Shown: positions 6,374 to 21,634 of the stretch, piece by piece | Numbering within the stretch: the stretch's first letter is position 1 | How the letters are laid out: the number at the start of each line of letters is the position of its first letter | From: a virus | DNA: 27,547 bases | Reading direction: 5' to 3' (one strand) | IMG/VR virus record: IMGVR_UViG_3300037502_002660 | Span: 1 to 27,547 of that record | Program-made: the position numbers and the translations under genes | Notes under the pieces: model-generated | Told to the model about the DNA's origin: nothing | Database searches by the model: none | The model's input: the letters and a program-made list of their open reading frames with translations, nothing else

Positions 6374-7435
6374 ATGGGTAAACCATTTGACATTTCAAAA
6401 TTCCGCAAGGAAATCACAAAAAGCATCGACGGTCTAAGTATCGGCTTCAACGACCCTACAGACTGGATCAGCACAGGCAACTATGCCTTGAATTATCTTA
6501 TCTCTGGAGACTTTAACAAAGGTGTTCCGCTGGGCAAGGTAACTGTGTTTGCTGGCGAATCGGGTGCAGGCAAGAGCTACATCTGCTCAGGCAACATTAT
6601 CAAGAACGCACAAGAGCAAGGCATCTATGTTGTGCTGATTGACTCAGAAAACGCACTAGACGAAGCTTGGCTGCATGCACTTGGTGTAAGCACAGACGAA
6701 AGCAAGCTCTTGAAGTTGAGCATGGCCATGATTGATGACGTGGCAAAAACTATTGCTACATTCATGAGCGATTACAAAGCCTTGCCCGATGGTGAGCGTC
6801 CCAAGGTCATGTTTGTTATTGACAGTTTGGGCATGTTGTTGACTCCCACAGACATTAACCAGTTTGAAGCAGGCGAAATGAAGGGTGATCTTGGCCGTAA
6901 GCCAAAAGCTCTCACTGCCTTGGTGCGTAACTGTGTGAACATGTTTGGTTCATACAATGTAGGCTTGGTTTGTACCAATCACACATACGCATCGCAAGAT
7001 ATGTTTGACCCCGATGATAAAATCTCAGGCGGTCAGGGTTTCATCTACGCCAGCTCTATTGTGGTTGCCATGCGCAAACTCAAGCTCAAAGAGGACGAAG
7101 ACGGTAACAAAGTTACAGACGTTATGGGTATTCGTAGTGCCTGTAAAGTCATGAAAACTCGCTATGCAAAACCCTTTGAAGGTGTGCAGGTCAAGATTCC
7201 TTATGAACAAGGCATGAGCCCATACAGCGGCCTAGTTGACTTGGCTGAGAAGAAAGGCATGCTCAAAAAGGACGGTAATCGACTGATGTTTGTGACCAGT
7301 GAAGGCGAGATCATCAAACAGTTCCGTAAAGCATGGGAAGCCAATGAAGAAGGCTGCCTTGACAAGATCATGGCAGACTTTGCAAATCAATCTGACAAGG
7401 TAAGTACCACTGAAAGTGACAGCGAGGAGGAATAA
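6374..7435 (+). CDS. uvsX: UvsX-like RecA-family recombinase
   Basis: 353 aa. ATP-dependent strand exchange protein of T4-type recombination-dependent replication. Walker A GESGAGKS is at residues 61-68 and Walker B KVMFVIDSLG at about 144-153. These are followed by the L1/L2-side segments with GLVCTNHTYAS and KISGGQGFIYAS, which are characteristic of UvsX. The C-terminus is acidic (ESDSEEE), as in other UvsX/RecA proteins where the tail moderates DNA binding. Length is close to T4 UvsX (about 390), slightly short. The ATG at 6374 is preceded by AGGTGA. Its stop overlaps the next start (TAATG), indicating translational coupling with the small acidic protein, radical SAM gene and uvsY-like gene downstream. 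Confidence 0.93.
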   Translation: MGKPFDISKFRKEITKSIDGLSIGFNDPTDWISTGNYALNYLISGDFNKGVPLGKVTVFAGESGAGKSYICSGNIIKNAQEQGIYVVLIDSENALDEAWLHALGVSTDESKLLKLSMAMIDDVAKTIATFMSDYKALPDGERPKVMFVIDSLGMLLTPTDINQFEAGEMKGDLGRKPKALTALVRNCVNMFGSYNVGLVCTNHTYASQDMFDPDDKISGGQGFIYASSIVVAMRKLKLKEDEDGNKVTDVMGIRSACKVMKTRYAKPFEGVQVKIPYEQGMSPYSGLVDLAEKKGMLKKDGNRLMFVTSEGEIIKQFRKAWEANEEGCLDKIMADFANQSDKVSTTESDSEEE

Positions 7436-8941: not shown

Positions 8942-9393
8942 TGTGGTACAGTCGAGTCGTTGCCAATCTTGGTGCTATACCTGATTTCATAGCTCACTAC
9001 GAGCGTGAGTTAGAAGACGCCAAGCGAGAATGTCGTATCGGTGGTCTAGTAGAAAAATCTATCAAAGAACTGCCAGGACATACTGAACATAGATTTAACC
9101 AGCTTCAAGAAATCGAAGCTGTGTTAAACTATCTCAATATTCAACTGCGTAAGATACGCCGCAAGCATTTTCAGAAATATCTAGAAGGCTATGCACGAGC
9201 ACTAACTAGTCGTGATGCTGAAAAATATGCAGACGGCGAAGATGAAGTGATCGACTTCGAAACAATCATCAACGAAGTGGCCTTGCTACGTAACAAGTGG
9301 CTGGGCATTATGAAAGGTCTAGAAACCAAACAATGGCAAATGGGCCATATTGTTAGGTTGCGCTCGGCCGGTATGGAAGACATTACAGTATAA
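8941..9393 (+). CDS. uvsY: UvsY-like recombination mediator
   Basis: 150 aa (T4 UvsY is 137). UvsY displaces gp32 and loads UvsX on ssDNA. The protein is all-helical by appearance. A central Lys/Arg-rich helix (QLRKIRRKHFQKYLEG) is followed by an acidic loop and a C-terminal helix, LLRNKWLGIMKGLETKQWQM, ending in HIVRLRSAGMEDI. That order matches the T4 protein, in which the last part reads as a long helix ending in IKHIQDMRAFEAG. The start ATG 8941 overlaps the preceding stop (TAATG). Position after uvsX and the shared operon support the call. Similarity is by pattern only, so confidence is moderate. Confidence 0.6.
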   Translation: MWYSRVVANLGAIPDFIAHYERELEDAKRECRIGGLVEKSIKELPGHTEHRFNQLQEIEAVLNYLNIQLRKIRRKHFQKYLEGYARALTSRDAEKYADGEDEVIDFETIINEVALLRNKWLGIMKGLETKQWQMGHIVRLRSAGMEDITV

Positions 9394-9394
9394 T

Positions 9395-10495
9395 ATGAGT
9401 TATTTGTTTACTAGTGAGAGTGTGTCAGAAGGACACCCGGATAAAGTTGCAGACGCTATCAGTGATGCAATCTTAGATTTAGTTATGGCTGAAGAAAACC
9501 CTGCATTACGGTGTGCATGTGAAACTTTGGTCACAACAAACATGGTCACAGTTGCCGGTGAGTACAAAGGTGTACTAGAGAAACAAGAAGTAGAAGATGT
9601 TGTACGTGAAACAATCAAACACATTGGCTACGAACAACCCGGCTTCGATTGGAGAACTGTAAAAATCTACAACGAATTGCATGCTCAAAGTGCAGACATT
9701 GCATTGGGTACTGATAATTTTGGTGCTGGTGATCAAGGCCTAATGTTTGGGTATGCCTGCAACGAAACTGATGCATACATGCCCAGCGCCATCTATTGGA
9801 GTCACCGTATTGTGGAAGCACTTGCACAGGCTCGTAAAAATGGTGTACTGGGATGGTTAGGCCCAGATGCCAAAAGCCAGGTAACATTCGAGTACGACGA
9901 AACAAATCGACCTGTACGTATTGCCAAGGTAGTTTGCAGTACTCAGCACAGCGAATCTGTGGACATTGATTTTGTGCGTCGATATGTAGAGCTTGCAATT
10001 CGCAACATTTTGCCCGGACAATATGTAGATGACAAAACTGAATTCTTTATTAACCCTACTGGTCGATTTGTTATTGGTGGCCCTGATGGTGACACTGGGC
10101 TTACTGGCCGTAAGATTATTGTTGATACTTACGGCGGTTACAGTGCTCATGGTGGCGGAGCCTTCAGTGGCAAAGATCCTACTAAAGTGGATCGTAGTGC
10201 CGCTTACATGATGCGATATATTGCCAAGAACATTGTGGCAAGCGGTCGAGCACCTTGGGTTACTTGTCAAATCAGTTATGCCATTGGTCTCAAAGACCCT
10301 ATGAGTTTCTATATAGAAACTTATTCGCCAACTTTGAGTAGAGAGCTCACACAGCAAATACAACAAACTGTAGATCTCACGCCCCGAGGTATCATTGAAC
10401 GTTTTGATTTGTTCCGCCCAATCTACAGCTCAACTACCAATTACGGACACTTTGGCAAGGACTATTTGCCTTGGGAAAAGATTGACTTGTTCTGA
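9395..10495 (+). CDS. metK: S-adenosylmethionine synthetase
   Basis: 366 aa; bacterial MetK is about 384. The enzyme makes SAM from methionine and ATP. All key motifs are present: GHPDK (13-17), GAGDQGLMFGYA (110-121), PDAKSQVT (157-164), GGPDGDTGLTGRK (228-240) and the phosphate-binding loop GGGAFSGKDPTKVDRS (253-268). The protein is complete and looks active. ATG 9395 lies one base after the uvsY-like stop, so it is in the recombination operon. Phage-encoded MetK is uncommon. Nearby SAM users are the radical SAM protein at 7685 and two methyltransferases at 13829-15027. Alternative: it may simply replenish host SAM after degradation or heavy DNA methylation. Confidence 0.95.
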   Translation: MSYLFTSESVSEGHPDKVADAISDAILDLVMAEENPALRCACETLVTTNMVTVAGEYKGVLEKQEVEDVVRETIKHIGYEQPGFDWRTVKIYNELHAQSADIALGTDNFGAGDQGLMFGYACNETDAYMPSAIYWSHRIVEALAQARKNGVLGWLGPDAKSQVTFEYDETNRPVRIAKVVCSTQHSESVDIDFVRRYVELAIRNILPGQYVDDKTEFFINPTGRFVIGGPDGDTGLTGRKIIVDTYGGYSAHGGGAFSGKDPTKVDRSAAYMMRYIAKNIVASGRAPWVTCQISYAIGLKDPMSFYIETYSPTLSRELTQQIQQTVDLTPRGIIERFDLFRPIYSSTTNYGHFGKDYLPWEKIDLF

Positions 10496-10502
10496 CCACT
10501 GG

Positions 10503-10510
10503 TTTAAATA
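10503..10510 (+). promoter_or_regulatory. TTTAAATA late-promoter-like box
   Basis: TTTAAATA (7 of 8 to TATAAATA) ends 5 nt before ATG 10516 and lies in the short gap after metK. No Shine-Dalgarno site is visible. It would drive the glycan cluster as a near-leaderless transcript if active. Confidence 0.4.
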
Positions 10511-10515
10511 GCAAT

Positions 10516-11274
10516 ATGAAAATTGTTATTGTTACCGGGGGTTTTGATCCCTTACACTCTGGACACATTGCCTACTTCAAAGCTGCTAGAACGCTAGGAG
10601 ATAGGTTAGTTGTAGGACTTAACTCTGATGAATGGCTTACCCGTAAGAAAGGTAGGCCTTTCATGCCTTTGCAAGAGCGCATGGCTATTGTGGGCAATCT
10701 TGCTGTGGTTGACGAAGTTGTGGTTTACAACGACGACGATGGATCCAGTTGCGATGCTATCCGTATGGTGAAATCACGATACCCCACTGCTGAAATCATT
10801 TTTGCCAACGGTGGGGATAGAACACAAGATAACATCCCCGAAATGTCAGTGCCTGACGTTGAGTTTGTGTTTGGTGTTGGTGGTCATGACAAAAAGAACA
10901 GCTCAAGTTGGATTCTTGAAGACTGGAAGAAACCACGCACTGAACGCACCTGGGGTTATTATCGAGTGTTGCACGAAGTGGGTGCCAACACCAAACTCAA
11001 AGAACTCACAGTCAATCCCAAAACATGCTTGAGCATGCAACGACACGAACGTCGTGCTGAGTTTTGGTTTGTGGCCGAAGGCGAAGCCACAGTGTACACA
11101 GTAGACCCTTACAGTACAGATTATGATTTGATGGCCAGTCCAGCACGACACCAACACACTTGGATCAAACTTGGCGAGTGGCATCAGTTGTGCAACGAAA
11201 CTGATCAGCCACTAAAACTAATTGAAATACAGTACGGCGAAGATTGCGTGGAAGAGGATATTGAGCGCAAATGA
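10516..11274 (+). CDS. Nucleotidyltransferase (cytidylyltransferase-like) fused to a cupin domain
   Basis: 252 aa with two domains. Residues 1-140 are a TagD/RfaE-type nucleotidyltransferase: GGFDPLHSGH with the catalytic HSGH at 14-17, then LVVGLNSDEWLTRKKGRP, FANGGDR, and a KNSSSWIL segment in the place of the ISSTR signature. Residues 141-252 form a cupin resembling the type II mannose-6-phosphate isomerase domain: TWGYYRVL, SMQRHERRAEFWFVAEGEA with metal-ligand-like H and E residues, and EWHQLCNETDQPLKLIEIQ. The likely role is activating a phosphorylated sugar or polyol with CTP (or ATP) and perhaps isomerising a related sugar. It opens the glycan cluster and overlaps the next glycosyltransferase gene by ATGA, suggesting that it supplies the donor. 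Confidence 0.8.
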   Translation: MKIVIVTGGFDPLHSGHIAYFKAARTLGDRLVVGLNSDEWLTRKKGRPFMPLQERMAIVGNLAVVDEVVVYNDDDGSSCDAIRMVKSRYPTAEIIFANGGDRTQDNIPEMSVPDVEFVFGVGGHDKKNSSSWILEDWKKPRTERTWGYYRVLHEVGANTKLKELTVNPKTCLSMQRHERRAEFWFVAEGEATVYTVDPYSTDYDLMASPARHQHTWIKLGEWHQLCNETDQPLKLIEIQYGEDCVEEDIERK

Positions 11275-11951
11275 AAGCCATTCCTGTATTTGTAGGATAT
11301 GATCCTAGAGAAGCCATAGCCTATCACACCTGTGTAAACTCAATCATTCGCAATAGTTCTAGACCTGTTGCTATTGTGCCTGTGGCATTGAATCTGTTTC
11401 GAGATTATTCAGAAACGCACACAGATGGATCAAATCATTTTATCTACACACGTTTCTTGGTACCACACTTGATGGAGTACACAGGATGGGCTATCTTTAT
11501 AGATGGCGACATGATTGTACGTGGGGATATTGCTGAACTGTGGGAATTGCAAAATCCTTATAATGATGTCATGGTAGTCAAGCACGATTACAAGACTCGA
11601 ATGACTGAGAAGTATCTAGGGTCCAAGAACGAAGATTATCCACGCAAGAACTGGTCGAGTGTTATACTCTGGAACTGCAATAGTTTTCCCAATCGCAAGC
11701 TCACTCCTGAGTTTGTACAAAAAGCAACTGGCGCCGAACTACACAGATTTACCTGGCTGGACGATGCTCGTATAGGCGAACTACCTCGAGAATGGAACTG
11801 GTTGCCCGATGAATACGGGCCAAATGCCGACGCCAAGTTACTGCACTACACACTTGGTACGCCATGCTTTCATGAGTTCGCTGATACTCCACAAGGAGAT
11901 GAGTGGCATCGAGAGCGAATCTATACTGAATATTGCCAGCAAAGACTATGA
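11271..11951 (+). CDS. GT-A-type glycosyltransferase (GT8-like)
   Basis: 226 aa. It begins with VFVGYDPREAIAYHTCVNSI, a nucleotide-sugar-binding start typical of a GT family shared by phages and aquatic bacteria. It continues to FIYTRFLVPHLM and the metal-binding DxD motif in FIDGDMIV (D78, D80). NWSSVILWNC and HYTLGTPCF follow, recalling the GT8 family. It should transfer a sugar from a nucleotide donor to an unknown acceptor in the cytoplasm. The start overlaps the upstream stop as ATGA, and a purine-rich GGAAGAGG lies upstream. Its stop overlaps the following GT-B-like gene in the same way, so the products are probably made in fixed proportion. Confidence 0.82.
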   Translation: MKAIPVFVGYDPREAIAYHTCVNSIIRNSSRPVAIVPVALNLFRDYSETHTDGSNHFIYTRFLVPHLMEYTGWAIFIDGDMIVRGDIAELWELQNPYNDVMVVKHDYKTRMTEKYLGSKNEDYPRKNWSSVILWNCNSFPNRKLTPEFVQKATGAELHRFTWLDDARIGELPREWNWLPDEYGPNADAKLLHYTLGTPCFHEFADTPQGDEWHRERIYTEYCQQRL

Positions 11952-12922
11952 GTGAAGAACAAGAAGATTTGGCACCATTGCCTAGACATCAGCTAGACAT
12001 GGTCACTCCTGAAATTGCAGAAATATTCCAGGATATACTGAAGTATCGTGTAGACCCCACAGGGGAATACTACGGGCAAACTGTAGAAAACATTTCAGCT
12101 AGAATAGCTGCACTCAACACATCAGCATGTGCAGCAATTTCTTCCGACGGCAAGGAGCCTAAGTTTTCAGAAAAAGGTCACATGTACGATCCCATCTTAC
12201 AAAGTTTTATTCAAGGGTCCGGCGGCCGCATCAGCACTTGGTCCAAGGAAGAGCAGTCAATGACTCCTGTGATACTGCGTGGTATTACCAAACGAAAAGA
12301 AATGGCAGCATGCCGAGCTAGTGGTCGAGACTTCTACTACATGGATACTGGCTATTTTGGTAACGGAAAAAAGAAAACCTTTCACCGTATTACCAAAAAT
12401 GATGTACAATATTTTGGACCTATCATTGATCGGCCTAGGGACAGACTAGAAGCCACAGGAATACAATTGGTCAAGTTTCGTCGAGGTAGCAACATTTTGC
12501 TAGCTCCTCCTAGCCAGAAGTTGTTGAATCTCTACAACATCAATCTTGAGCAGTGGCTGATAGATACACAAGTAGAAATTAAAAAACACACTGATCGTCC
12601 TATTGTTGTGCGCGAGAAGCAAAGCCGTAGTGTGCGGCAGAGCACTGATACCATGGCCATGGCGTTAGAGCAGGATGTACACTGCCTGGTTACATTTTCA
12701 AGTATCGCAGCCACTGAAGCACTGTTGCTGGGCAAGCCTGCTATTACGCTAGGACCCAATGCAGCCGCTCCGTTGTGCAGTAAACAATTGTCTGAAATAG
12801 AACAGCCATATATTCCCAGTTTAGACGAAGTAAATCGTTGGGCTGCACACCTGGCCTATTGCCAGTTTACAGAACCTGAAATGCGCGATGGCACAGCATG
12901 GCGGATTCTCAATGGCCAATGA
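11948..12922 (+). CDS. GT-B/KpsS-like glycan transferase, paralogue 1
   Basis: 324 aa. The C-terminal half has the pattern of capsule-type GT-B enzymes (KpsS/KpsC-like): ILLAPPSQK, a DRPIVVREK strand, then HCLVTFSSIAATEALLLGKP, SEIEQPY and a helix WAAHLAYCQFTEPEMRDG. The S-x-A-A-T-E segment probably holds the nucleotide donor. The middle part (LRGITKRKE, FYYMDTGYFG, FHRITKN) matches the minus-strand gene at 15020-15802 almost segment by segment, so the two are duplicates; this copy has an extra N-terminal region of about 85 residues. Starts at ATG 11948 in an ATGA overlap. No signal peptide, so probably cytoplasmic. Exact donor and linkage unknown. Confidence 0.7.
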   Translation: MSEEQEDLAPLPRHQLDMVTPEIAEIFQDILKYRVDPTGEYYGQTVENISARIAALNTSACAAISSDGKEPKFSEKGHMYDPILQSFIQGSGGRISTWSKEEQSMTPVILRGITKRKEMAACRASGRDFYYMDTGYFGNGKKKTFHRITKNDVQYFGPIIDRPRDRLEATGIQLVKFRRGSNILLAPPSQKLLNLYNINLEQWLIDTQVEIKKHTDRPIVVREKQSRSVRQSTDTMAMALEQDVHCLVTFSSIAATEALLLGKPAITLGPNAAAPLCSKQLSEIEQPYIPSLDEVNRWAAHLAYCQFTEPEMRDGTAWRILNGQ

Positions 12923-13841
12923 CGTTGTAGTCTATGTTAGTTCTGTAGCTAACCCTCGCAAGCATGCCAGGAAGATACAGTGTTTGGAAAGCTTCGCTGA
13001 AGGTGTAAAACAATCCGGCGATCCTGTGCGGGTGGAATGGGACTATCAATATCGCCCTGCTAAATTGGCAGTGATTCTGGGCTGGGCTAGTACCAATACT
13101 GGTGGTCCCAATATTACCTTGCGCAAACAAATCATTGCCGAACAGGCTCGTCGTGGCGGTCACACCATGTGCATAGATGCCAGCTGTTTCAAGTACCTGG
13201 ACAACACTGGTACCTATTTGCGCTACAGTCTTGGAGGACCATTCTATGACAAAGCAGAATATGCCAACCGCAACAGTACAGCAGACAAATGGAACGAAAT
13301 ACGTGCCAGCTTGAATGTGGATCTCTTGCCCTATACTGGTAGCAAACGTGGGCATGTACTGGTATGCATGCAACGAGACGGCGGTTTTGCAATGAAAACA
13401 CTGGATCCTTTGGATTGGCTAGAACAAAAAATTGGACAAATACGTCAATACAGCAGAAGACCAATAGTGATTAGACCGCATCCAGGTTCGTATGAGGCTA
13501 GAGATTTTGTGAAGTATCAATCACGACACTATGCGAATCTTGATATCATGGTAGTTGACCCAAGAACCAGCACACTGTTGGACAATCTGGCAAATGCTCA
13601 TGCTGCGGTGTTTTTCAACAGCAGCGCCAGCGTGGCAGCAGCGTGTTCTGGAGTTCCTGTGTTTGCTGATGATTCCAGCTGTGTGAGTTGGTCAGTGGCC
13701 AACAAAGATATTTCTCGAATTGAACAACCACAACAGTTTGAGCGTGGCCAATGGATCAATGACCTAGCGGCTGCACACTGGAGTGATCAAGATGCGCGAG
13801 AAGGGCGCATCTATCAAAAGTTTTTGCCTTACTTGCGCTGA
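12912..13841 (+). CDS. GT-B/KpsS-like glycan transferase, paralogue 2
   Basis: 309 aa. Same architecture as the preceding protein but diverged: GHVLVCMQRDGGFA, RRPIVIRPHPGSYEAR (the RPHP motif of capsule-type transferases), AHAAVFFNSSASVAAACSGV, and SRIEQP near the end. The N-terminal part contains TMCIDASCFKYL and LRYSLGG in the place of the MDTGYFG segment of paralogue 1. ATG 12912 overlaps the upstream stop by 11 nt and has GGCGGAT a few bases upstream; an ATG 24 nt earlier is possible but would deepen the overlap. The 3' end overlaps the convergent methyltransferase gene by 13 nt. The probable role is addition of a sugar or polyol phosphate unit. Confidence 0.7.
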   Translation: MANDVVVYVSSVANPRKHARKIQCLESFAEGVKQSGDPVRVEWDYQYRPAKLAVILGWASTNTGGPNITLRKQIIAEQARRGGHTMCIDASCFKYLDNTGTYLRYSLGGPFYDKAEYANRNSTADKWNEIRASLNVDLLPYTGSKRGHVLVCMQRDGGFAMKTLDPLDWLEQKIGQIRQYSRRPIVIRPHPGSYEARDFVKYQSRHYANLDIMVVDPRTSTLLDNLANAHAAVFFNSSASVAAACSGVPVFADDSSCVSWSVANKDISRIEQPQQFERGQWINDLAAAHWSDQDAREGRIYQKFLPYLR

Positions 13842-14389
13842 ACAATTAGATCATAGTTGTGGCCCTTGACATGTGGCCATGTTGCAGTTTTGTCTACTAC
13901 CTTGATCTTTTCCCACACAATGTCCACGTTCATGGTAGCCAGTATCTTTGCACGCCACCACTCAGGCAGTTCTACTATTAAATGAGCATTGCGCCCATCT
14001 GGTAAGTCCTTTTTAGCAGGATAGCAAGCGATCCTAAAACATCCACAGCGTTCGATCTTGCTGTCAATGACTCGCAGTGTTTCGTCTAAGTAAGAAGGTT
14101 CAATGTGCTCAATAGCGTCTGTACTGATCACAGCGTCATAGGTGCGTTTGGGTAGTTGGCGGAATTGCGCACTACCTGGATCATAACCTTCGCAGAACGT
14201 ACCCGGGTGCTGTTCTTGGATAGCACGTATCAGTCCGCCTTGCCCACAACCAAAGTCCAACAAGCTTGTGGGTTGATACTGTGCTAGAAAGTCTCGGACA
14301 ATAGGATAGCTCTTGTAACCATTGTCAAACTTACCACCTTGATGTAGCTGTGCAAGTTGCTGTTGATATGCTGTATCGATTATTGCCAT
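13829..14389 (-). CDS. Class I SAM-dependent methyltransferase
   Basis: 186 aa. Motif I is LLDFGCGQGG (43-52), the acidic residue of motif II is in EGYDPG, and motif IV reads VISTDAIEHIE, so the SAM-binding half is complete. The family includes small-molecule and glycan methyltransferases; the substrate cannot be read. ATG 14389 was chosen because it lies within the last 10 bases of the FkbM gene and the domain begins directly after it; a longer frame up to 14437 exists but sits entirely inside the upstream gene. It is the last gene of a four-gene minus-strand operon in the glycan cluster, which points to methylation of a glycan or its terminal sugar. Confidence 0.8.
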   Translation of the reverse strand: MAIIDTAYQQQLAQLHQGGKFDNGYKSYPIVRDFLAQYQPTSLLDFGCGQGGLIRAIQEQHPGTFCEGYDPGSAQFRQLPKRTYDAVISTDAIEHIEPSYLDETLRVIDSKIERCGCFRIACYPAKKDLPDGRNAHLIVELPEWWRAKILATMNVDIVWEKIKVVDKTATWPHVKGHNYDLIVQRK

Positions 14390-15027
14390 CCCATGATCCA
14401 ATCGTCTTTGACCTGATCCAAACGTACCATGCCCCAATCCTGTAACAAACCAATGGCAGCATGTTGCCCGTAGTCTTTGGTGTACATTTCGTGTGGCTTT
14501 TGTTCCACTACAACAACAGGACGATTGCGACGGATAGTATCCTGCGCACCGTATAGCACACGATACTCGTAGCCTTCGCAGTCGATTTTGATGTAGTCCA
14601 CGTTCTCTAGCCGCAAGTTATCCAGGCGGATCACAGTGGTTTCTCCGCCTCGTGTATTGGGATCAATGTGAGTGTGTCCTGTATTGCCTTCGGTTAGCAC
14701 CATTGTGACTTGTTGGTCGCGATCACCCAGTGCTTCTGTACGCACAGTTAGGTTCTCTGCTACTACGTTTTTGCTCAAGCAATCGCGGAACATGGCCACA
14801 GGTTCAAAGGCTATGACTTGATCAAACCGCTTGACCAAACTGCGACTCCAAAGTCCCACGTTTGCCCCAATGTCCAGTGCAACACGGTTCTTTTTGACAT
14901 ATTGCATGCTACGATCGCGCACTTGATATTGGTATTCAGCAGGTCCGCCCTTGCTTACACTCTTTTCAATCATTTTTGGGAAGTGATCTTCCATGTCTGG
15001 AAACCACCAGCCTCTATGTTCATACAT
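14380..15027 (-). CDS. FkbM family methyltransferase
   Basis: 215 aa. SAM-binding motif ALDIGANVGLWS (50-61), the ribose-binding acidic residue in IAFEP, and the FkbM hallmark strand YIKIDCEGYEYRVLYGA (145-161) followed by RPVVVVEQ. FkbM enzymes O-methylate sugars, polyketides and related hydroxyls, and often occur in polysaccharide loci. The start has a clear AAGGAG inside the end of the upstream gene and overlaps it by 8 nt. The neighbouring glycosyltransferases favour O-methylation of a glycan, which could cap it or mask it; this is inference from context. Confidence 0.88.
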   Translation of the reverse strand: MYEHRGWWFPDMEDHFPKMIEKSVSKGGPAEYQYQVRDRSMQYVKKNRVALDIGANVGLWSRSLVKRFDQVIAFEPVAMFRDCLSKNVVAENLTVRTEALGDRDQQVTMVLTEGNTGHTHIDPNTRGGETTVIRLDNLRLENVDYIKIDCEGYEYRVLYGAQDTIRRNRPVVVVEQKPHEMYTKDYGQHAAIGLLQDWGMVRLDQVKDDWIMGWQ

Positions 15028-15802
15028 TTAATATCTCCTTTGCAAGCCCGGACTTGAGCTCATTGATGTGAAACTGTCCATATGCTAGATGATGCGCCCA
15101 GGCTTCAACTTGATCGCGTGGTGCTAACCAGGGTGTATCTATCTTGCTTAAATCTGTATTGGCCACAGGCAGAGCAGCGTTACTGGGTGCCAACACAAAC
15201 GCAGGAACACCTTGTATCACAGCTTCTGTGGCTGCTATGCTATTGAATGTGACCACAGCGTGTACATCTGCAAGTGCATGTTCGAATGCATTGGCCACTC
15301 TAACCTGTCGGTTTTTTGTGCGCTGACGTATCTCCACAGGGCGATCTGTGTGGCGCTTGATTGTGGCCACTGTGTCTGCCAGCCACTTTTCTAGTTCTAT
15401 TTCATAAAACTTGCAGGGCTTTTCGTCTGGTGCTGCAATCAATATTTTACGCCCTGACTGCCAAGGCTTTAGTTCAATTCCGTGTCGTTCCCAGCGGTCA
15501 GCAGGCCGAGCAACAATATTTCCGTGTTGCAAGTTGTTGGGCACAATCCTGTGCCACAATTTCCAACCATGTGGATTTTGTAAGCTGACTCTGTTGCCAA
15601 AGTATCCAGAATCCATGTACAAGAACTCACGCTGATCTGTCCAGCACCGTTTGATTATTTTGTGCTTCATTATGCCCCGAATCAGCAAAGGCTCTGTGCT
15701 GTCTTCATAGCGCCAGGTTTCCAGTGTAGTAGGCTCAGCACCACAGCCGCGAGCAAACATTTCTACATATTCGTCGTTGCTGTTTTTGTTGAGAAATATC
15801 AT
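15020..15802 (-). CDS. GT-B/KpsS-like glycan transferase, paralogue 3
   Basis: 260 aa. Closest relative in the window is the plus-strand gene at 11948: both share LxRGIxKxK, the FLYMDSGYFGN segment, WHRIVPNN versus FHRITKND, ILIAAPDEKP, HTDRPVEIR, HAVVTFNSIAATEAVIQGVP and a final helix WAHHLAYGQF. It lacks the N-terminal region of about 85 residues of that copy. ATG 15802 forms an ATGA overlap with the upstream glycosyltransferase; a TTG 6 nt earlier is possible. Being on the opposite strand from its twin, it probably arose by inverted duplication or separate acquisition. Function inferred as in the other members. Confidence 0.7.
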   Translation of the reverse strand: MIFLNKNSNDEYVEMFARGCGAEPTTLETWRYEDSTEPLLIRGIMKHKIIKRCWTDQREFLYMDSGYFGNRVSLQNPHGWKLWHRIVPNNLQHGNIVARPADRWERHGIELKPWQSGRKILIAAPDEKPCKFYEIELEKWLADTVATIKRHTDRPVEIRQRTKNRQVRVANAFEHALADVHAVVTFNSIAATEAVIQGVPAFVLAPSNAALPVANTDLSKIDTPWLAPRDQVEAWAHHLAYGQFHINELKSGLAKEILNV

Positions 15803-16593
15803 GACCAATATTGTTCTTGACGTTGCACTTTTAAATCAGTGGCCAAGCTGCGCCCTGTATTTTTTCTAGCACCTTTTAAATGGTCCAGGTAAGCGCCCCA
15901 CTCTGAATTGATTAAAGGATGACCTTCGCCGGTGATCAAATGACTGCTCCAGTCTAGTTCGGCACAATGCACCATTTTTCTTATTTCGTCGAACACATAG
16001 CTGTCGTGCCATTCCGCGTAGTGGAATATTCTGTCATGATCGTAGGCTTCTTGAAAACGTTGCACAAAATGCTGTCCATTGCGGCTGGCAAGATTGATGG
16101 CATACAGTCCGCATTCACTGAATTTGCCACGGCGACCCAAAAAGCAAAGTTCACGATCATCGGGACACAGTTGTGCAATGCGCTGTTCTGTGATGTTACT
16201 GTGGCAGACCATGTCTGCATCCATCCAAATCAACCAGTTGCTGGTGGTTCGAGCAGCGGCAAATATAGCATAGACCTTGTGTGCAAAACGCACAGCGTCC
16301 CATTTGAATCCTTTGCCAGCGTCTTTTCTTTTGGCACGCACAGGATCTGCTGACACATCGCCATTGGCCTTGGGCACACCGCGCCAACGTGTTTTAAATG
16401 CCACTAGTTCAGCACTGGCAGCTTCTAGATCAAACACTCGTAAATTGGGCGCAGACTCAGTAACTGTGCAGCCTTCAGCGTAGACCTGTAATTCTACTGT
16501 GCTGGGCCAAGTTTGCAAAAAGGTCTGGATCATTCTGCGTCCGTATTTCTCGTAACCCGCCGCATTAAATGTGGTAACTACTGTGTATTTCAT
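15799..16593 (-). CDS. GT-A-type glycosyltransferase-like protein
   Basis: 264 aa. It starts as a nucleotide-sugar fold (YTVVTTFNAAGYEKYGRRM), has a basic region RVAFKTRW to GFKWDAVRFAHKVYAIF, and then the metal-binding DAD in NWLIWMDADMVC (125-127). SECGLYAIN and EWHDSYVFDE follow and could hold the acceptor site and catalytic base. ATG 16593 heads the minus-strand operon and has no Shine-Dalgarno site; a CATAAGTA box lies 6 nt upstream. Only 11 bp separate this start from the divergent gene start at 16605. Its partner is the GT-B paralogue immediately downstream, with an ATGA overlap. Confidence 0.72.
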   Translation of the reverse strand: MKYTVVTTFNAAGYEKYGRRMIQTFLQTWPSTVELQVYAEGCTVTESAPNLRVFDLEAASAELVAFKTRWRGVPKANGDVSADPVRAKRKDAGKGFKWDAVRFAHKVYAIFAAARTTSNWLIWMDADMVCHSNITEQRIAQLCPDDRELCFLGRRGKFSECGLYAINLASRNGQHFVQRFQEAYDHDRIFHYAEWHDSYVFDEIRKMVHCAELDWSSHLITGEGHPLINSEWGAYLDHLKGARKNTGRSLATDLKVQRQEQYWS

Positions 16594-16599
16594 TGTTGA

Positions 16600-16607
16600 T
16601 ACTTATG
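16600..16607 (-). promoter_or_regulatory. CATAAGTA late-promoter-like box
   Basis: Minus-strand CATAAGTA, then TCAACA and ATG 16593. It overlaps the start codon of the divergent gene at 16605. It matches the arrangement before the glycosyltransferase-like gene at 5167. Position-based inference. Confidence 0.35.
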
Positions 16608-17456
16608 ATCAAAAACATAGCCTATTTTCCTTTACAGTGCGCTCTCAATTCTGCACCAGTCATGAGCGCTGTGTTAGACAGTCTGCAGGCAAGTGGAATT
16701 CAAACACAAGAGAATTCAATGCACAGTGATGCGGCTATTATTTGGTCAGCACTGTTCCACGGACGCATGGCCAAAAATCGACAAGTATACGAGCACTATC
16801 GCAGAGAAAACAAACCTGTAATCATTGTGGAAATTGGTGCACTATATCGCGGCAACACCTGGAAAATTGCAGTGAACAATATTACAGCTCAGGGCTATTA
16901 TGGGCACAGAGATAATTTAGATTGGGACCGTCCGCGCAAATTAAAGATTAGTCTAGCGCAACAATTAAAGACGCGGCCGCACGTTATATTGGCCATGCAA
17001 CACAGCCGCAGTCTGCAGGTAGAGCACATCGCAAACATGACAGAATGGGTGCGTACTACCTTGGGCACACTGCGCAACAACACAGATCGTCCCATAGTAA
17101 TACGCCCGCATCCACGTTGCAACACACCCTTGTTCCCATTGCCCCCGGGCGTGACTATAGAACATCCGCAAAAGATTGCAAACACCTACGACAGCTTTGA
17201 CATGCATTTTGATTGTCACGCTGTGGTCAATATCAATTCAGGACCGGGCATACAAGCTGCTATTGCTGGCGTTCGCCCGGTGGTAGACTCATCCAGTCTT
17301 GCGTGGCCTGTTGCAGTGGGCTATGCAGACATTGAACAACCTTATGACATAGATCGTGACACCTGGCTCACGCAAATATGTCACACTGAGTACACTGTAG
17401 AAGAAATACAAAGAGGCATATGGCTAAAAAGATTAGAGAACGCACTGACGACATAA
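16605..17456 (+). CDS. GT-B/KpsS-like glycan transferase, paralogue 4
   Basis: 283 aa. C-terminal motifs match the other three members: HVILAMQHSRS, TDRPIVIRPHPRCN with the RPHP motif, HAVVNINSGPGIQAAIAGVRP, YADIEQPYDIDRDTW and a terminal helix. The N-terminal half differs: LNSAPVMSAVLDSLQASG and VIVEIGALYRGNTWKIA. Closest in style to paralogue 2. ATG 16605 is preferred; an upstream TTG at 16593 would overlap the divergent start. No Shine-Dalgarno site is seen. The 3' end overlaps the next glycosyltransferase by 37 nt, so the two are probably translated together. Confidence 0.68.
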   Translation: MIKNIAYFPLQCALNSAPVMSAVLDSLQASGIQTQENSMHSDAAIIWSALFHGRMAKNRQVYEHYRRENKPVIIVEIGALYRGNTWKIAVNNITAQGYYGHRDNLDWDRPRKLKISLAQQLKTRPHVILAMQHSRSLQVEHIANMTEWVRTTLGTLRNNTDRPIVIRPHPRCNTPLFPLPPGVTIEHPQKIANTYDSFDMHFDCHAVVNINSGPGIQAAIAGVRPVVDSSSLAWPVAVGYADIEQPYDIDRDTWLTQICHTEYTVEEIQRGIWLKRLENALTT

Positions 17457-18160
17457 TTGATTGTGCATGTGTGATACACGGCGCAGGGTATACCTGGGAA
17501 TATGTGGAAAAATTGCACAGCATGTTGGAGCGTGTGCGTCCCGGTGGTATTCGTTTGCATGTTTATACTGAACATGATAGATCAGTTCCGCCTCACATGG
17601 TCAAGCATTGTTTGCAAGAATGGCCCGGCGTTTCGGGACCCAAGAAATCCTGGTGGTACAAATTGCAATTATTCAACAGAGATTTATTCAATGGCAATTT
17701 ATTGTATTTTGATCTTGACACAGTGATTGTGCGCGAAATAGATTGGATCACAGCACAGGACACTGATTATCTCTGGGGCATTAGGGATTTTCGTTATCTG
17801 CAAACTGGCCAACAACACAGCCTCAACAGCAGTGTGATGTGGTTCAATGTGTTCAAGTTTGGCTGGCTATGGGATGAGTTCAAACAAAAAGACCTGGCCA
17901 CAACCATGCGTAGATATCCCGGCGATCAAGATTACATACAGCATCAGGTAGGAGTCAATCGCTACAGACTCATGCCAGACTGGCAGTTTCAAAGCTGGCG
18001 CTGGCAATGTGTAGATGGCGGCTATGACTTCCCACAAAGGCGTCACAAGAATCCAGGCGCAGGGGCAAAAATAGAACCTAATACTTCTGTATTAGTTTTT
18101 CATGGCCGTCCCAAACCCCACGAAATTAAAGACAAACTAGTACAAGAACTCTGGCGCTAA
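17420..18160 (+). CDS. GT-A-type glycosyltransferase
   Basis: 246 aa. CACVIHGAGYTWEYVEKL begins the nucleotide-binding fold. SWWYKLQLFNRDLF leads to the DxD metal site in LLYFDLDTVIV (D98, D100), then NSSVMWFN, PGDQDYI and HGRPKPHEI. The order (WW-Y-K-L-x-L-F, then D-L-D-T) is familiar from glycosyltransferases in bacterial and phage surface-glycan loci. AGAGG precedes ATG 17420. It is the last gene of the glycan cluster: an early-type promoter starts 6 nt after its stop codon, so the next region is transcribed separately. Paired with the GT-B paralogue it overlaps. Confidence 0.78.
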   Translation: MAKKIRERTDDIIDCACVIHGAGYTWEYVEKLHSMLERVRPGGIRLHVYTEHDRSVPPHMVKHCLQEWPGVSGPKKSWWYKLQLFNRDLFNGNLLYFDLDTVIVREIDWITAQDTDYLWGIRDFRYLQTGQQHSLNSSVMWFNVFKFGWLWDEFKQKDLATTMRRYPGDQDYIQHQVGVNRYRLMPDWQFQSWRWQCVDGGYDFPQRRHKNPGAGAKIEPNTSVLVFHGRPKPHEIKDKLVQELWR

Positions 18161-18165
18161 AACGG

Positions 18166-18194
18166 TTGACCCGAATTGCCCTTTTTGCTATAAT
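18166..18194 (+). promoter_or_regulatory. Early sigma70 promoter cassette 1
   Basis: TTGACC (18166-18171), 17-nt spacer, TATAAT (18189-18194), then AAAGGAGCC before ATG 18222. First of six near-identical cassettes; the spacer here ends in TTTTTGC rather than AATTTGC. Confidence 0.9.
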
Positions 18195-18221
18195 AATGAC
18201 TTAGCAACAAAGGAGCCGGCG

Positions 18222-18347
18222 ATGCGCGAAATCGAATTCATGGAAGGTTATCGTATGATGCGAAGCGTGGGTGCAGACTGGCTGAGTTCTGTGTTCATGG
18301 CCTTTGTTTGGGTTTTGCGTGGCGACGAAATTTACGATCAGGAGTAA
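18222..18347 (+). CDS. Small early protein, 41 aa
   Basis: 41 aa, from ATG 18222 to TAA 18347, preceded by AAAGGAG (18209-18215) and a strong sigma70 promoter. The first half is charged and amphipathic (REIEFMEGYRMMRS); the middle is hydrophobic (LSSVFMAFVWVL) and could insert in or lie on a membrane; the end is acidic. No family recognised. Its position as first gene under a host-type promoter suits an immediate-early host-takeover or accessory role. The next gene starts 4 nt after its stop, using a CAGGAG that overlaps its last codons. Confidence 0.65.
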   Translation: MREIEFMEGYRMMRSVGADWLSSVFMAFVWVLRGDEIYDQE

Positions 18348-18351
18348 TACT

Positions 18352-18561
18352 ATGGGTTACAAAGTTTTGGGCATCCGGGACACTAAATGGCAACCCCGCA
18401 AAGGGCTAGAAGGTCCCTTCTATTACCCCAATGGTCAGGTGTTGTATTATGACCCAAAAGCCGGGGAATATTGGGATCCTACCACAGATTTTTACGTTTC
18501 CAACGATGATGTTGCAGAATTACAACAGGATTTTCTGCGATTTTTAGCAAAAACGAATTGA
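18352..18561 (+). CDS. Small early protein, 69 aa
   Basis: 69 aa. Rich in aromatic residues and glycine/proline (GPFYYPNGQVLYYDPKAGEY, then WDPTTDFYV), with a short C-terminal helix (DDVAELQQDFLRFLAK). The beta-hairpin-like repetition of Y/F-x-P/G suggests a small folded beta domain. ATG 18352 is supported by CAGGAG at 18339-18344; an upstream in-frame ATG (18304) lies inside the previous gene and is unlikely. Its TGA stop is embedded in the -35 hexamer of the next promoter. Function unknown. Confidence 0.75.
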   Translation: MGYKVLGIRDTKWQPRKGLEGPFYYPNGQVLYYDPKAGEYWDPTTDFYVSNDDVAELQQDFLRFLAKTN

Positions 18562-18586
18562 CCAATAATTAACCATTTGCTATAAT
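18558..18586 (+). promoter_or_regulatory. Early sigma70 promoter cassette 2
   Basis: TTGACC (18558-18563), 17-nt spacer, TATAAT (18581-18586). The -35 contains the TGA stop codon (18559-18561) of the upstream gene. AAAAGGGAG precedes ATG 18619. Confidence 0.9.
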
Positions 18587-18618
18587 ACTTACATATTAAC
18601 ACAAAAGGGAGCTGACAA

Positions 18619-18951
18619 ATGGTCAAACACGAAGACATGGTAGTTTACAAGAACATCGGCACTTACCATTTAGTAACTGACGATGGTTATGATGAGGATA
18701 CTGACACTTGGTATGAGCCGTTCAGGCACTATGAGGTTAGACACTTTAGTGGACTAGAAGTAACTGCTAGCTCAGTTAAAGAGTGCAAGAAGTGCCTGGA
18801 TGACTTCGAAGTCACTGCCCAGGAGATTCGTGCGGCCATCAACAAGCTCGCCATTTACGGCTATCGTGTGTTTAAAGAGCAGGAGTACAAAGATACTAGC
18901 ACTGACCCCAATGGCTTAAAGGCTTTTAGTCGAAACTACGCTATACTGTAA
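18619..18951 (+). CDS. Early protein of unknown function, 110 aa
   Basis: 110 aa. The acidic N-terminal half is probably beta-rich (MVVYKNIGTYHLVTDDGYDE onward, with HYEVRHFSGLEVTAS). A Cys pair (ECKKCLDDF) and a helix EIRAAINKLAIYGYRVF follow. AAGGGAG lies before ATG 18619, about 30 nt after the -10 of cassette 2. The following gene starts 15 nt after its stop without its own promoter, so the two share a transcript. Both this protein and its neighbour read as a small beta module followed by a helical segment. No family recognised. Confidence 0.75.
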   Translation: MVKHEDMVVYKNIGTYHLVTDDGYDEDTDTWYEPFRHYEVRHFSGLEVTASSVKECKKCLDDFEVTAQEIRAAINKLAIYGYRVFKEQEYKDTSTDPNGLKAFSRNYAIL

Positions 18952-18966
18952 TCATAGGAAACCAAA

Positions 18967-19389
18967 ATGAAACATACTATTATACTAGACAATGGTACCT
19001 ACTTGCAGGTCAATGACATGGGCTGGACTGAGCGTAAGACACCCAGGCAGTACAAGAATCTAGCAGAAGCCCAACATCATTTAAAGTGGGGCATTGGCAT
19101 GTGTCATACTAATGTTCAACTAAGAACAGATCGCATCGCGGCCTATCACAAGGACAAAGCCAAATTTGAAAAGGCTGTGGCCCAAGAACAAGCCCTGATC
19201 AAAGAATTAGAGACACAACCTTATAAAAAGGTGGCAGATCAAATCAAGCAGGCTCAACGTAACATTGATCAACTCACTGTTAAGTTTTATCCCACAAGCC
19301 GTCTTGAGGACTTCAAACGCGACACCAAGTTTTTGGCAAGTGCCAAAAGAGTGCTAGCCAACAACCCTAGAGTCATCCCTTTGTCTTAA
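18967..19389 (+). CDS. Early protein of unknown function with coiled-coil region, 140 aa
   Basis: 140 aa. A short beta-type start (HTIILDNGTYLQVNDMGW) is followed by a long charged helical region (about residues 56-105, with DKAKFEKAVAQEQALIKELE and DQIKQAQRNIDQL) that should form a coiled coil. The C-terminus is basic. A modest TAGGAA site precedes ATG 18967. It is co-transcribed with the gene before it from early cassette 2 and is followed by a hairpin at 19394-19419. No known family; the coiled coil suggests oligomerisation or binding to a partner. Confidence 0.75.
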   Translation: MKHTIILDNGTYLQVNDMGWTERKTPRQYKNLAEAQHHLKWGIGMCHTNVQLRTDRIAAYHKDKAKFEKAVAQEQALIKELETQPYKKVADQIKQAQRNIDQLTVKFYPTSRLEDFKRDTKFLASAKRVLANNPRVIPLS

Positions 19390-19393
19390 AAAC

Positions 19394-19422
19394 TAAGTGT
19401 GGCTAAAATGCCACACTTATTT
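19394..19422 (+). terminator. Hairpin with weak T-tract, possible terminator
   Basis: TAAGTGTGGC pairs perfectly with GCCACACTTA (19394-19403, 19410-19419) around TAAAAT. The tail (TTTC) is short, so termination is probably partial. The next promoter begins 4 nt later. Confidence 0.5.
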
Positions 19423-19425
19423 CGG

Positions 19426-19454
19426 TTGACCAATAATTCCCAATTTGCTATAAT
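19426..19454 (+). promoter_or_regulatory. Early sigma70 promoter cassette 3
   Basis: TTGACC (19426-19431), 17-nt spacer AATAATTCCCAATTTGC, TATAAT (19449-19454). TAAGGAGCC precedes ATG 19483. Confidence 0.92.
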
Positions 19455-19482
19455 ATAATATATTAAGAAATAAGGAGCCAAA

Positions 19483-19716
19483 ATGATTCATCAAAATATA
19501 CAAAAACTCATTAACGATTATCAAGAGATTCTGGATCGAAATCCCCTGGATCAGTCAGAAGATACTCAAAGTATTCTCATTCGTTTCACTCAAGCTCTTG
19601 CCACAGAACTAGGTGAGATTGTAGTAGCAAGCCCTTACAATGAAGGCGTTCGTATGTACTTTGATGAAAAAATTGCTCGCTACGAGATTAAAAAGAGCGT
19701 GGCACTTGTGAAATAA
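19483..19716 (+). CDS. Small early protein, 77 aa
   Basis: 77 aa. Largely helical (HQNIQKLINDYQEILDRN, then ILIRFTQALATELGEIVV), with a final YFDEKIARYEIKKSVAL segment. ATG 19483 has TAAGGAG and cassette 3 in front, so expression early after infection is likely. It is a single-gene unit followed by about 140 nt of non-coding, repeat-bearing DNA. No similarity recognised and no catalytic motif. Confidence 0.75.
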   Translation: MIHQNIQKLINDYQEILDRNPLDQSEDTQSILIRFTQALATELGEIVVASPYNEGVRMYFDEKIARYEIKKSVALVK

Positions 19717-19723
19717 AGTGGCC

Positions 19724-19777
19724 AAAAACTAGTACTTGAGTTTGCAGTTTTACCCGGTAAAACTAGTACTAAAGTAC
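19724..19777 (+). repeat. Direct and inverted repeats in a non-coding gap
   Basis: AAAACTAGTACT occurs at 19725-19736 and again at 19759-19770. Between and into the second copy lies a perfect inverted repeat, AGTTTTACC-C-GGTAAAACT (19746-19764). GTACT-AA-AGTAC follows at 19766-19777. These lie between a stop codon (19716) and early cassette 4 (19861). They may be an RNA structure, a binding site or a processing site; none is proven. Confidence 0.6.
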
Positions 19778-19860
19778 ACATTTTTCCCTCTCAGGGCGTT
19801 TAATTTCCCTAGATGTTGTGCAAGTGCATCAAAGCACACAAAAAACAGTATAAACCGCGG

Positions 19861-19889
19861 TTGACCGAATATTCCCGATTTGCTATAAT
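19861..19889 (+). promoter_or_regulatory. Early sigma70 promoter cassette 4
   Basis: TTGACC (19861-19866), 17-nt spacer GAATATTCCCGATTTGC, TATAAT (19884-19889). AATAAGGAGCC precedes ATG 19920. Confidence 0.92.
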
Positions 19890-19919
19890 AGAAGCATAGT
19901 AAGAAATAAGGAGCCACAA

Positions 19920-20096
19920 ATGAACTTCGAGCAAGCACTGGATGTAGTTGAGCAATACCAAGCTGATTGGGCCCTGCCCGGACTGCTGGAAACTCTGATG
20001 CAAATGGGTGACAACCTGGATGACCTCACAGACCGCGAGTGCCGTGCATACCGCGTGGTGTTCCGTGACATGGCCCGTTTGTTTGCTCCAGCATAA
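19920..20096 (+). CDS. Small early protein, 58 aa
   Basis: 58 aa from ATG 19920 to TAA 20096. Acidic and helical: NFEQALDVVEQYQADW, LLETLMQMGDNLDDL, then ECRAYRVVFRDMARLF. The leucine and aromatic spacing fits a small helical bundle. The start is fixed by AAGGAGCC and by cassette 4. It is a single-gene unit; the next cassette begins 6 nt after its stop. Function unknown; small acidic early proteins of phages often bind host proteins, but that is only a general expectation here. Confidence 0.75.
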   Translation: MNFEQALDVVEQYQADWALPGLLETLMQMGDNLDDLTDRECRAYRVVFRDMARLFAPA

Positions 20097-20101
20097 AACG
20101 G

Positions 20102-20130
20102 TTGACCGAATATTCCCAATTTGTTATAAT
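20102..20130 (+). promoter_or_regulatory. Early sigma70 promoter cassette 5
   Basis: TTGACC (20102-20107), 17-nt spacer GAATATTCCCAATTTGT, TATAAT (20125-20130). AAAAGGAGCC precedes ATG 20159. It shares the AAAACGGTTGACC upstream edge with cassette 1. Confidence 0.92.
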
Positions 20131-20158
20131 ACTTGTATAGTAACTAAAAGGAGCCAAC

Positions 20159-20566
20159 ATGCAGAACTGGACTGACAAAATCATCCATTGGAATCAACTG
20201 CCCGGTACCGAAGTCAAGCGTCTGCTCGACACCTGGGGCAAGAGCCCAGCAGAAATCGCCAAGTACGATAAAAAGCACGGATTCAAGAACGAGACAGTGG
20301 CTGTTCCGCATGTGTCTAACACCAAGAACCCTGTTGACTTTCCCAAGGCTCCTGCCAAAAAAGCAGTTGCCAAGACTGCGACTGTCAAGACTTCCACTCG
20401 TCAAAAGCACACCGGTGCTGACGGTGCTATCAAGTTTGTGGAGCATCGCAATCTCTACGTGGGATTCATGGGCGGCCGGGTTGTTGTAACCAAGCGCACC
20501 GCCGAGGCATGCAAGGTGTTCTTGCTTGAGAACTTTGGTATTGAGAGTGCCAAGGTTGACCAATAA
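20159..20566 (+). CDS. Early basic protein of unknown function, 135 aa
   Basis: 135 aa. The N-terminal part WTDKIIHWNQLPGTEVKRLL is a helix-forming segment, followed by a basic Ala/Lys linker (AKKAVAKTATVKTSTRQKH, about residues 64-83). A compact C-terminal domain, IKFVEHRNLYVGFMGGRVVV followed by TKRTAEACKVFL, has a beta-hairpin plus helix look. The linker is like those in nucleic-acid-binding proteins. Its final codons (Val-Asp-Gln-stop) are read through the -35 hexamer of cassette 6, so promoter and coding sequence overlap. No family recognised. Confidence 0.75.
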   Translation: MQNWTDKIIHWNQLPGTEVKRLLDTWGKSPAEIAKYDKKHGFKNETVAVPHVSNTKNPVDFPKAPAKKAVAKTATVKTSTRQKHTGADGAIKFVEHRNLYVGFMGGRVVVTKRTAEACKVFLLENFGIESAKVDQ

Positions 20567-20584
20567 ATCCCAATTTGCTATAAT
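20556..20584 (+). promoter_or_regulatory. Early sigma70 promoter cassette 6
   Basis: TTGACC (20556-20561), 17-nt spacer AATAAATCCCAATTTGC, TATAAT (20579-20584). The -35 lies inside the last codons of the upstream gene. AAAGGAGCC precedes ATG 20612. Confidence 0.92.
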
Positions 20585-20611
20585 ATTACTTTAAACAATA
20601 AAGGAGCCACC

Positions 20612-21634
20612 ATGTCAACAATTCGCGTCATTAGCGGTAACTACCGCGGTGTTCAAGTTCAAAACACAGATTTTGAACTGGTGTCAGGTTTCCAAACAGG
20701 TGCCAAAGGCAGTTATGTCACAGTCAAAAATGGCGGCAACTTTCCTCGTTGCCCCGATACGGTTCGTATTCGTGTTGACAATATCTCAGATATCGAGTAT
20801 ACTGCTGGCATGACTACAGACAACACCGTACATTTTGAGAAGACTGCCGCAGTTACGGAAACTGACGAGCAAGCAATGGATCGTATCCGCGAGCGCTTTG
20901 ACATTTTGCACGAGATGAGCAAAGCATGTGTCAGCGGCGACATTCGCGCTATGATTGTGTCGGGCCCGCCCGGCGTTGGCAAGAGCTTTGGCGTTGAGCA
21001 AGAGATTGACAAAGCCACTATGTTTGACAAGATTGCAGGCAAGCGTCTGCGAGCAGAAGTTGTCAAGGGCAGTGCCACTCCTATCGGACTGTACCAAACT
21101 CTCTACAAGTACAGCGACCCCAACTGTGTGGTTGTGTTTGACGACTGCGACAGCATTTTGCTGGATGACGTTGCACTGAACCTGCTGAAAGGTGCTCTGG
21201 ACTCAGGTAAAAAGCGCAAGATTTCTTGGCTTGCCGACAGCCGCATTTTGCGTTCAGAAGGTATCCCAGACAGTTTTGAATTCAAGGGCTCAGTAATCTT
21301 TATTACTAACTTGAAGTTTGACAAAATGAAATCGCAAAAGTTGCGGGATCACCTGGATGCACTGCAAAGTCGTTGCCACTACCTGGACCTGACTCTGGAC
21401 ACCATGCGTGACAAGATCCTGCGTATCAAACAAATTGCCAAGGATGGCGTGCTGTTTGCAGACTACGACTTTGAGCCCGAGACTTGCGATACCATCATTG
21501 AGTTCATGGACTCCAACAAAGATCGCCTGCGTGAAATGAGCTTGCGTATGGCTCTCAAGATTGCAGACTTGCGCAAGAGCTTTCCCAATAATTGGAAGCG
21601 CATGGCAGAAACAACTTGCATGAAGAGTGCCTAA
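20612..21634 (+). CDS. AAA+ ATPase, phage early protein
   Basis: 340 aa. Residues 1-65 form an N-terminal beta-rich region beginning TIRVISGNYRGVQVQ, reminiscent of a KOW/SH3-like fold. The AAA+ domain follows: Walker A GPPGVGKS (118-125), Walker B VVVFDDCD (173-180; the usual D-E is D-D), sensor 1 in VIFITNL (228-234) and a possible arginine finger near R254. A helical C-terminal domain includes LREMSLRMALKIADLRKSF. Related AAA+ proteins occur in many phages with unclear roles (chaperone, remodelling, DNA-associated). It is driven by cassette 6 and followed at once by four tiny genes. ATP binding is secure; the partner is unknown. Confidence 0.85.
   Translation: MSTIRVISGNYRGVQVQNTDFELVSGFQTGAKGSYVTVKNGGNFPRCPDTVRIRVDNISDIEYTAGMTTDNTVHFEKTAAVTETDEQAMDRIRERFDILHEMSKACVSGDIRAMIVSGPPGVGKSFGVEQEIDKATMFDKIAGKRLRAEVVKGSATPIGLYQTLYKYSDPNCVVVFDDCDSILLDDVALNLLKGALDSGKKRKISWLADSRILRSEGIPDSFEFKGSVIFITNLKFDKMKSQKLRDHLDALQSRCHYLDLTLDTMRDKILRIKQIAKDGVLFADYDFEPETCDTIIEFMDSNKDRLREMSLRMALKIADLRKSFPNNWKRMAETTCMKSA

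Follow-up and report, generated by a model that had tools for sequence, protein, structure and literature searches.

A repeated promoter and ribosome-binding-site cassette at the joints between exchangeable small genes in large uncultured phages

The DNA analysed here (the window) is one complete IMG/VR virus record of 27.5 kb, IMGVR_UViG_3300037502_002660, which, judged by the sequence of its gp32-like, UvsX, UvsY and UvsW genes, is part of a T4-like phage genome. On its plus strand, between 18164 and 20611, lies an array of six near-identical cassettes, each composed of a promoter, a short 5' untranslated region (UTR) and a Shine-Dalgarno sequence (SD), and numbered 1 to 6 in what follows. 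The array is flanked on the left by gene B (17420-18160), which encodes a glycosyltransferase (phrog_1962) and keeps this place in 67 loci, and on the right by gene A (20612-21634), for a 340-aa AAA ATPase (phrog_1250), all genes of the array and its flanks being on the plus strand. Cassette 1 (18164-18221; GG, -35 at 18166, TGn/-10 to 18194, predicted +1 at 18201, SD AAAGGAGCC) heads two genes, R (18222-18347; 41 aa) and C (18352-18561; 69 aa; phrog_13298, function unassigned), whose families occur in 3 and 45 loci, respectively. Two genes also follow cassette 2 (18556-18618; -35 at 18558): S (18619-18951; 110 aa; family in 3 loci) and x30 (18967-19389; 140 aa), for which no close homologue was found within the 80 loci compared. 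Cassette 3 (19424-19482; -35 at 19426) precedes K (19483-19716; 77 aa) and its non-coding 143-nt 3' flank (19717-19858), which is kept between phages up to the next -35; cassette 4 (19859-19919; -35 at 19861) precedes J (19920-20096; 58 aa), cassette 5 (20100-20158; -35 at 20102, TGT-TATAAT) precedes H (20159-20566; 135 aa), and cassette 6 (20554-20611; -35 at 20556) heads A. For the small genes of the array, searches of Pfam and PHROGs returned no functional assignment, and they placed none of the window's cassette-led genes in a mobility family.

Scanning the window for TTGACC-N17-TATAAT on the plus strand returned cores at the six -35 positions given above, against a mean of 0.01 in dinucleotide shuffles of the window, none of which reached six. 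With a 33-column matrix run over the whole window, the six cassettes scored 40-53 and the next best site 0.8. In all six the hexamers are near consensus (11 of 12 bases) and an extended -10 TG is present, giving a -35, TGn and -10 layout, and GG precedes the -35 in five of them; these three elements are the best-conserved columns, the hexamers having been fixed by the search pattern, and the overall consensus is GG-TTGACC-AATAATTCCCAATTTGC-TATAAT. Downstream of each -10 come an A-rich leader of ~20 nt, the SD and an ATG, located 56, 61, 57, 59, 57 and 56 nt from the -35 in cassettes 1 to 6, with the SD being AAGGAGCC in five and AAAGGGAGCT in cassette 2. An earlier sequence-only reading had listed the same six sites, the ATG at 56-61 nt from the -35 and the SD shared by five, all of which our measurements reproduce. 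It had also placed each cassette before a new small gene, which needs qualifying, since cassette 6 heads the conserved AAA ATPase and cassettes 1 and 2 head two genes each, and had described the promoters as mostly lacking terminators between them, in agreement with the single good terminator-like hairpin of the array (19394-19419, plus strand; TAAGTGTGGC..GCCACACTTA-TTT), 6 nt 5' of cassette 3.

Relatives were collected using the AAA protein as query, which retrieved 545 related places in viral contigs, and the best 80 (80-93% identity, on contigs of up to 350 kb) were used; 81 loci make up the comparison set, in which gene A is constant by construction because it was the query, while this does not apply to B. 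In 1.22 Mb of these best 80 of 545 there are 221 copies of the core TTGAC-N18-TATAAT, always on the strand of the AAA gene, and 0 in the reversed control. A scan for the exact core in 20 whole records, near-duplicates among them, found 284 sites, which within any one record all share a strand (0 on the opposite one); the reversed controls gave 8. In four long relatives of 210-350 kb (G002, G006, G008 and G009), 33, 34, 26 and 32 cassettes, a total of 125, scored above 10 with the matrix, and there were no matches on the opposite strand or on reversed strands; the matrix was trained on plus-strand sites, but the exact-core scan is free of such training. All 125 are co-directional, 77% of coding lying on that strand (p = 1e-14), and they are clustered, gaps below 1 kb making up 44-52% against ~10% expected. 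A 25-base pattern matched at least 119 viral stretches and nothing in a 257-Gb cellular collection (a looser pattern of 17 specified bases gave 20 single, uninformative matches on viral contigs). Among GenBank phages we found no match spanning most of the cassette consensus, a DNA search with a 2.6-kb stretch of one relative found nothing, and PA5oct and Cronobacter S13, named phages that encode a related AAA protein, are without the cassette. It is carried by a family of large freshwater phages that are uncultured.

Across the 81 loci, the interval from B to A holds cassette-plus-gene units in differing modular combinations. With slashes between units, the order is R C / S x30 / K / J / H / A in the window, C / K / J / H / A in L061, C / K / N / H / A in L055, C / x26 S / K / H / A in L036, C / J / H / A in L052 and C / Y / G / Z / A in L034. 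A given gene can have different neighbours: J is preceded by K, C or E, and N by K or E. Exactly one cassette-plus-N unit separates L090 from L094, the cassette at its right edge being identical at 56 of 56 nt, and between L083 and L087 gene E is exchanged for W between two cassettes; no target duplications and no terminal repeats except the cassette were seen in the aligned events. In pairwise comparisons in which both orthologues were present in the other genome, adjacency was kept at 13 of 50 cassette junctions, 140 of 229 plain gaps that measure 40 nt or more, and 581 of 833 tight junctions. In a matched subset, with a downstream gene of at most 150 aa and less than 5 kb from a cassette, it was kept at 6 of 37 cassette junctions (16%) versus 30 of 41 controls (73%; p = 4e-7).

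The junctions themselves fall inside the cassette. Conservation of K and its 143-nt flank runs into the next cassette, covering both its -35 and its -10, and divergence starts in the UTR; the gene downstream of that cassette is J (window and L061), H (L036) or N (L055). In close pairs with the same upstream and a different downstream gene, identity is 0.81-0.88 up to the -10 and 0.34 in the UTR. Cassettes before non-homologous genes of the same genome are more alike than under permuted labels, both in the UTR (0.441 vs 0.388 +/- 0.010) and in the spacer (0.674 vs 0.618), with 0 of 500 permutations reaching the observed value in either case. Exact UTR families of 19-21 nt stand ahead of unrelated genes: ATACACATAGCAAAGCAAAAC in G002 and G008, ACTTGTATAGTAATTAAAA in G006 and ATACACATAAACAGCAAAC in G009. 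For 32 pairs of unrelated genes from the same genome, picked for near-identical UTRs, identity extends from about -4 of the -35 through the promoter to the start codon and is ~0.25 outside, both upstream of -4 and just past the ATG, so that the shared tract of ~50 bp ends at both cassette edges.

These results bear on the sequence-only reading in several ways. Its proposal that cassettes are copied as units is supported by the identical cassette UTRs before unrelated genes of one genome; the argument it gave, that conservation beyond what sigma70 needs implies copying, does not hold by itself, because T4 early promoters too have extra consensus (PMC2988021). The enrichment beyond the array that it anticipated is absent from the window but evident in the four long relatives, with 26-34 copies each and 0 on the opposite strand. 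The unit orders bear out that genes, and not cassettes, vary between relatives, and its notion of a platform for acquiring small early genes stands as regards a platform for small genes, the process being equally one of exchange and loss.

The cassette also often overlaps the end of the preceding gene. Of 131 cassettes, 32 have the stop codon of the upstream gene at +4 (TTGA) and 11 have it at +11 (TTGACCAATAA), compared with ~0.3% per position in controls; in the window, the TGA of C (18559-18561) is within the -35 of cassette 2, and H ends in cassette 6, which encodes its C-terminal KVDQ and stop (AAG GTT GAC CAA TAA). At the other edge, 21 of the 131 have an ATG exactly 35 nt past the -35 start, neighbouring offsets having 0-3, and this offset recurs in the same gene families in three or four genomes. 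Such a spike puts +1 on the A of CAT, and leaderless mRNAs are therefore predicted. Cassettes of this type are found at 206636, 233287, 240365 and 329545 of G006, with orthologues in G002, G008 and G009, and the predicted leaderless early mRNAs encode products that include one of 342 aa and a GIY-YIG-like one of 112 aa. Among genes with GGAG, the extended form GGAGCC marks those that are cassette-led (22 of 55 vs 10 of 261 other genes, p = 6e-12). Cassettes without an open reading frame (ORF) occur in or beside tRNA clusters (G002 288888, 288984 and 295731; G008 206673; G009 100899 and 104718), several of them having CAAACGATCGAGTAG in common past the promoter.

We consider it likely that, as a whole, the cassette is a phage promoter and ribosome-binding-site (RBS) module that doubles as a recombination joint for small genes. 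The repeat would be a strong sigma70-type -35/TGn/-10 promoter joined to a short 5' UTR and SD, most likely read early by host RNA polymerase, and early timing would fit the -35/TGn/-10 layout, the uniform orientation and the small genes, as in T4 (PMC2988021). A module of ~50 bp present 26-34 times per long genome in one direction would therefore also be a scattered homology tract. Recombination between two cassettes would replace, insert or delete the small gene lying between them and would additionally copy cassette sequence between sites, and an incoming gene would thus receive promoter and RBS at once; the preceding gene would often be stopped by the cassette, at the TGA of TTGACC or the TAA of GTTGACCAATAA. 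The recombination is probably run by the phage's own UvsX/UvsY/gp32 system; the window encodes, on the plus strand, a gp32-like single-stranded-DNA-binding protein (5315-6313; phrog_1192), a UvsX-like recombinase (6374-7435; phrog_97) and a UvsY-like recombination mediator (8887-9393; phrog_231), besides a UvsW gene. We infer sigma70 use and UvsX dependence, and also that the small genes act in host takeover or anti-defence. A more far-reaching version, which we put forward tentatively and at a little under an even chance, is that the module has a spread and homogenisation of its own, independent of genes, and is a distributed joint such that nearly any small ORF between cassettes would be expressed at once and one-way, the joint lending a stop codon upstream and, downstream, either a promoter with RBS or a leaderless start.

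Promoter early stem-loops (PeSLs), reportedly 'mobile regulatory cassettes' of T4-type phages (PMC4503421, PMC3950731), consist of a terminator stem-loop and an early promoter. Like them, the elements described here are small promoter cassettes repeated at the joints of shuffled modules in hyperplastic regions of T4-like genomes, and the shared traits comprise a promoter that is by sequence sigma70-type and intergenic, a location at module joints in a plastic region and a T4-type genome. The cassettes might accordingly be taken for true PeSLs in another lineage, especially with a stem-loop (score of at least 10, at most 60 nt upstream) near 17% of cassettes versus 1% in shuffles, a stem-loop and promoter pair at 19394-19454 formed by cassette 3 and its hairpin, and a recurrent hairpin-promoter fusion at 22191-22244 of the window. 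We find this unlikely, since the defining stem-loop, when sought, was present in that minority only: most cassettes, five of the window's six among them, stand beside no strong terminator-like stem-loop, and the cassette 3 pair is the sole one of its kind in the array. Moreover, the common unit is promoter, UTR and SD, often with the upstream stop codon, and its identity stops at about -4 on the upstream side. In its anatomy the cassette works like the mobile regulatory cassettes of PeSLs, but is a variant without the defining stem-loop in most copies.

T4 early promoters have one dominant direction, as do the cassettes (284:0 in 20 records). With their UP, -35, TGn and -10 elements and further consensus past sigma70 needs, these 'uber' promoters (PMC2988021) lend weight to a view in which the cassettes are ordinary strong early promoters kept by selection, alike because of the preferences of the host's RNA polymerase and ribosomes, with gene turnover resulting from illegitimate recombination and selection for intact genes. 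The top-conserved columns are also those of the -35, TGn and -10, hexamers preset by the search pattern. The consensus here, however, is TTGACC with CCC in the spacer, UTR and SD families are shared within genomes, and selection leaves unexplained the exact 19-21-nt UTR families that precede unrelated genes and differ between genomes, identity that halts at the cassette edges, adjacency loss far commoner where the junction is a cassette than at matched gaps, and a clean one-unit indel bounded by cassettes; selection alone is already disfavoured and, in our estimate, quite improbable. Far less probable still is that a homing endonuclease or transposon-like element moves the units and the cassette is its footprint: a GIY-YIG-like 112-aa gene, its motif judged by eye without profile confirmation, is cassette-led in four genomes, yet the aligned events are bounded by the cassette only, without target duplications or other terminal repeats, and none of the cassette-led genes in the window matches a mobility family. 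Some points do weigh against a module that is both promoter and recombination joint. Same-genome likeness could in part be due to selection towards an optimum specific to the lineage, although the several distinct exact UTR families in one genome argue against one selected optimum; the adjacency counts come from mechanical ORF calls and from genome pairs that are not independent; in compact genomes surviving breakpoints are necessarily intergenic, a point that the adjacency control addresses; the matrix found no seventh copy in the window, where copies outside the array are absent; and timing and start sites are read from sequence.

Two archaeal systems offer further parallels. In HGTV-1, a haloarchaeal virus, most ORFs on one side of the genome are preceded by a motif that combines a TATA-like box with an inverted repeat and has been likened to PeSLs (PMC3950731), the inverted repeat being a feature of that motif and the virus an archaeal one. 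In archaeal viruses, early regulatory sequences that are conserved have served to find anti-defence genes (PMC11065993). These likewise are near-identical strong promoters before many small unassigned genes, more alike within a genome, although they are archaeal TATA/BRE promoters, no shuffling at the motif was noted for them and an anti-defence role here would be by analogy. The cassette could then serve as a search key, the ORF directly behind it being, by that analogy (PMC11065993), a candidate host-takeover or anti-defence protein. For very large phages it provides a concrete route to gain, lose and express small, mostly unassigned genes, one that rests on sequence-level joints beyond gene-content inference, and the +35 ATG spike makes a directly testable prediction of leaderless early mRNAs.

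A second promoter type was noted at 22191-22250 of the window, where a hairpin (GGCAGGCACTTCGGTGCCTGTC) has a T-tract merging into TTGACTT..GTAACTATATAAT and an ATG (22250) follows 5 nt past the -10. The same kind of fusion is present 3' of the AAA gene in L037, L042, L044, L065 and L075, and is the closest to a true PeSL here. The 143-nt flank of K may be an RNA structure or a terminator. C, the commonest variable gene of the array, has a weak OCRE-like match (YYDPKAGEYWDPTTDFY) under the cut-off. K is predicted to form three helices (predicted local distance difference test score, pLDDT, 77) with no significant match in the PDB (best E 3.2), and the prediction for H failed (pLDDT 54). Upstream of the array, an S-adenosylmethionine synthetase gene (9395-10495) is followed by clustered genes for glycosyltransferases, methyltransferases (FkbM) and a cytidylyltransferase/cupin protein (10516-18160), and the genes of 9395-18160 are likely a glycan-making island adjoining the array. 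RegB (PF10715) had no match in five records, the control likewise being without a match anywhere. Some relatives hold 31-38 tRNA or transfer-messenger RNA (tmRNA) genes per 20 kb, and within their tRNA clusters sit GOLLD RNAs (RF02032) with an internal tRNA-Asn gene (L140 12345-12808 and L157 7008-7472). Permuted phage tmRNAs were identified in L125 (1128-1593), L140 (6327-6862), L151 (2953-3295) and L157 (11362-11767), those of L125, with the tag ANDSQFALAA, and L151 being of betaproteobacterial type, which suggests freshwater Betaproteobacteria as hosts.

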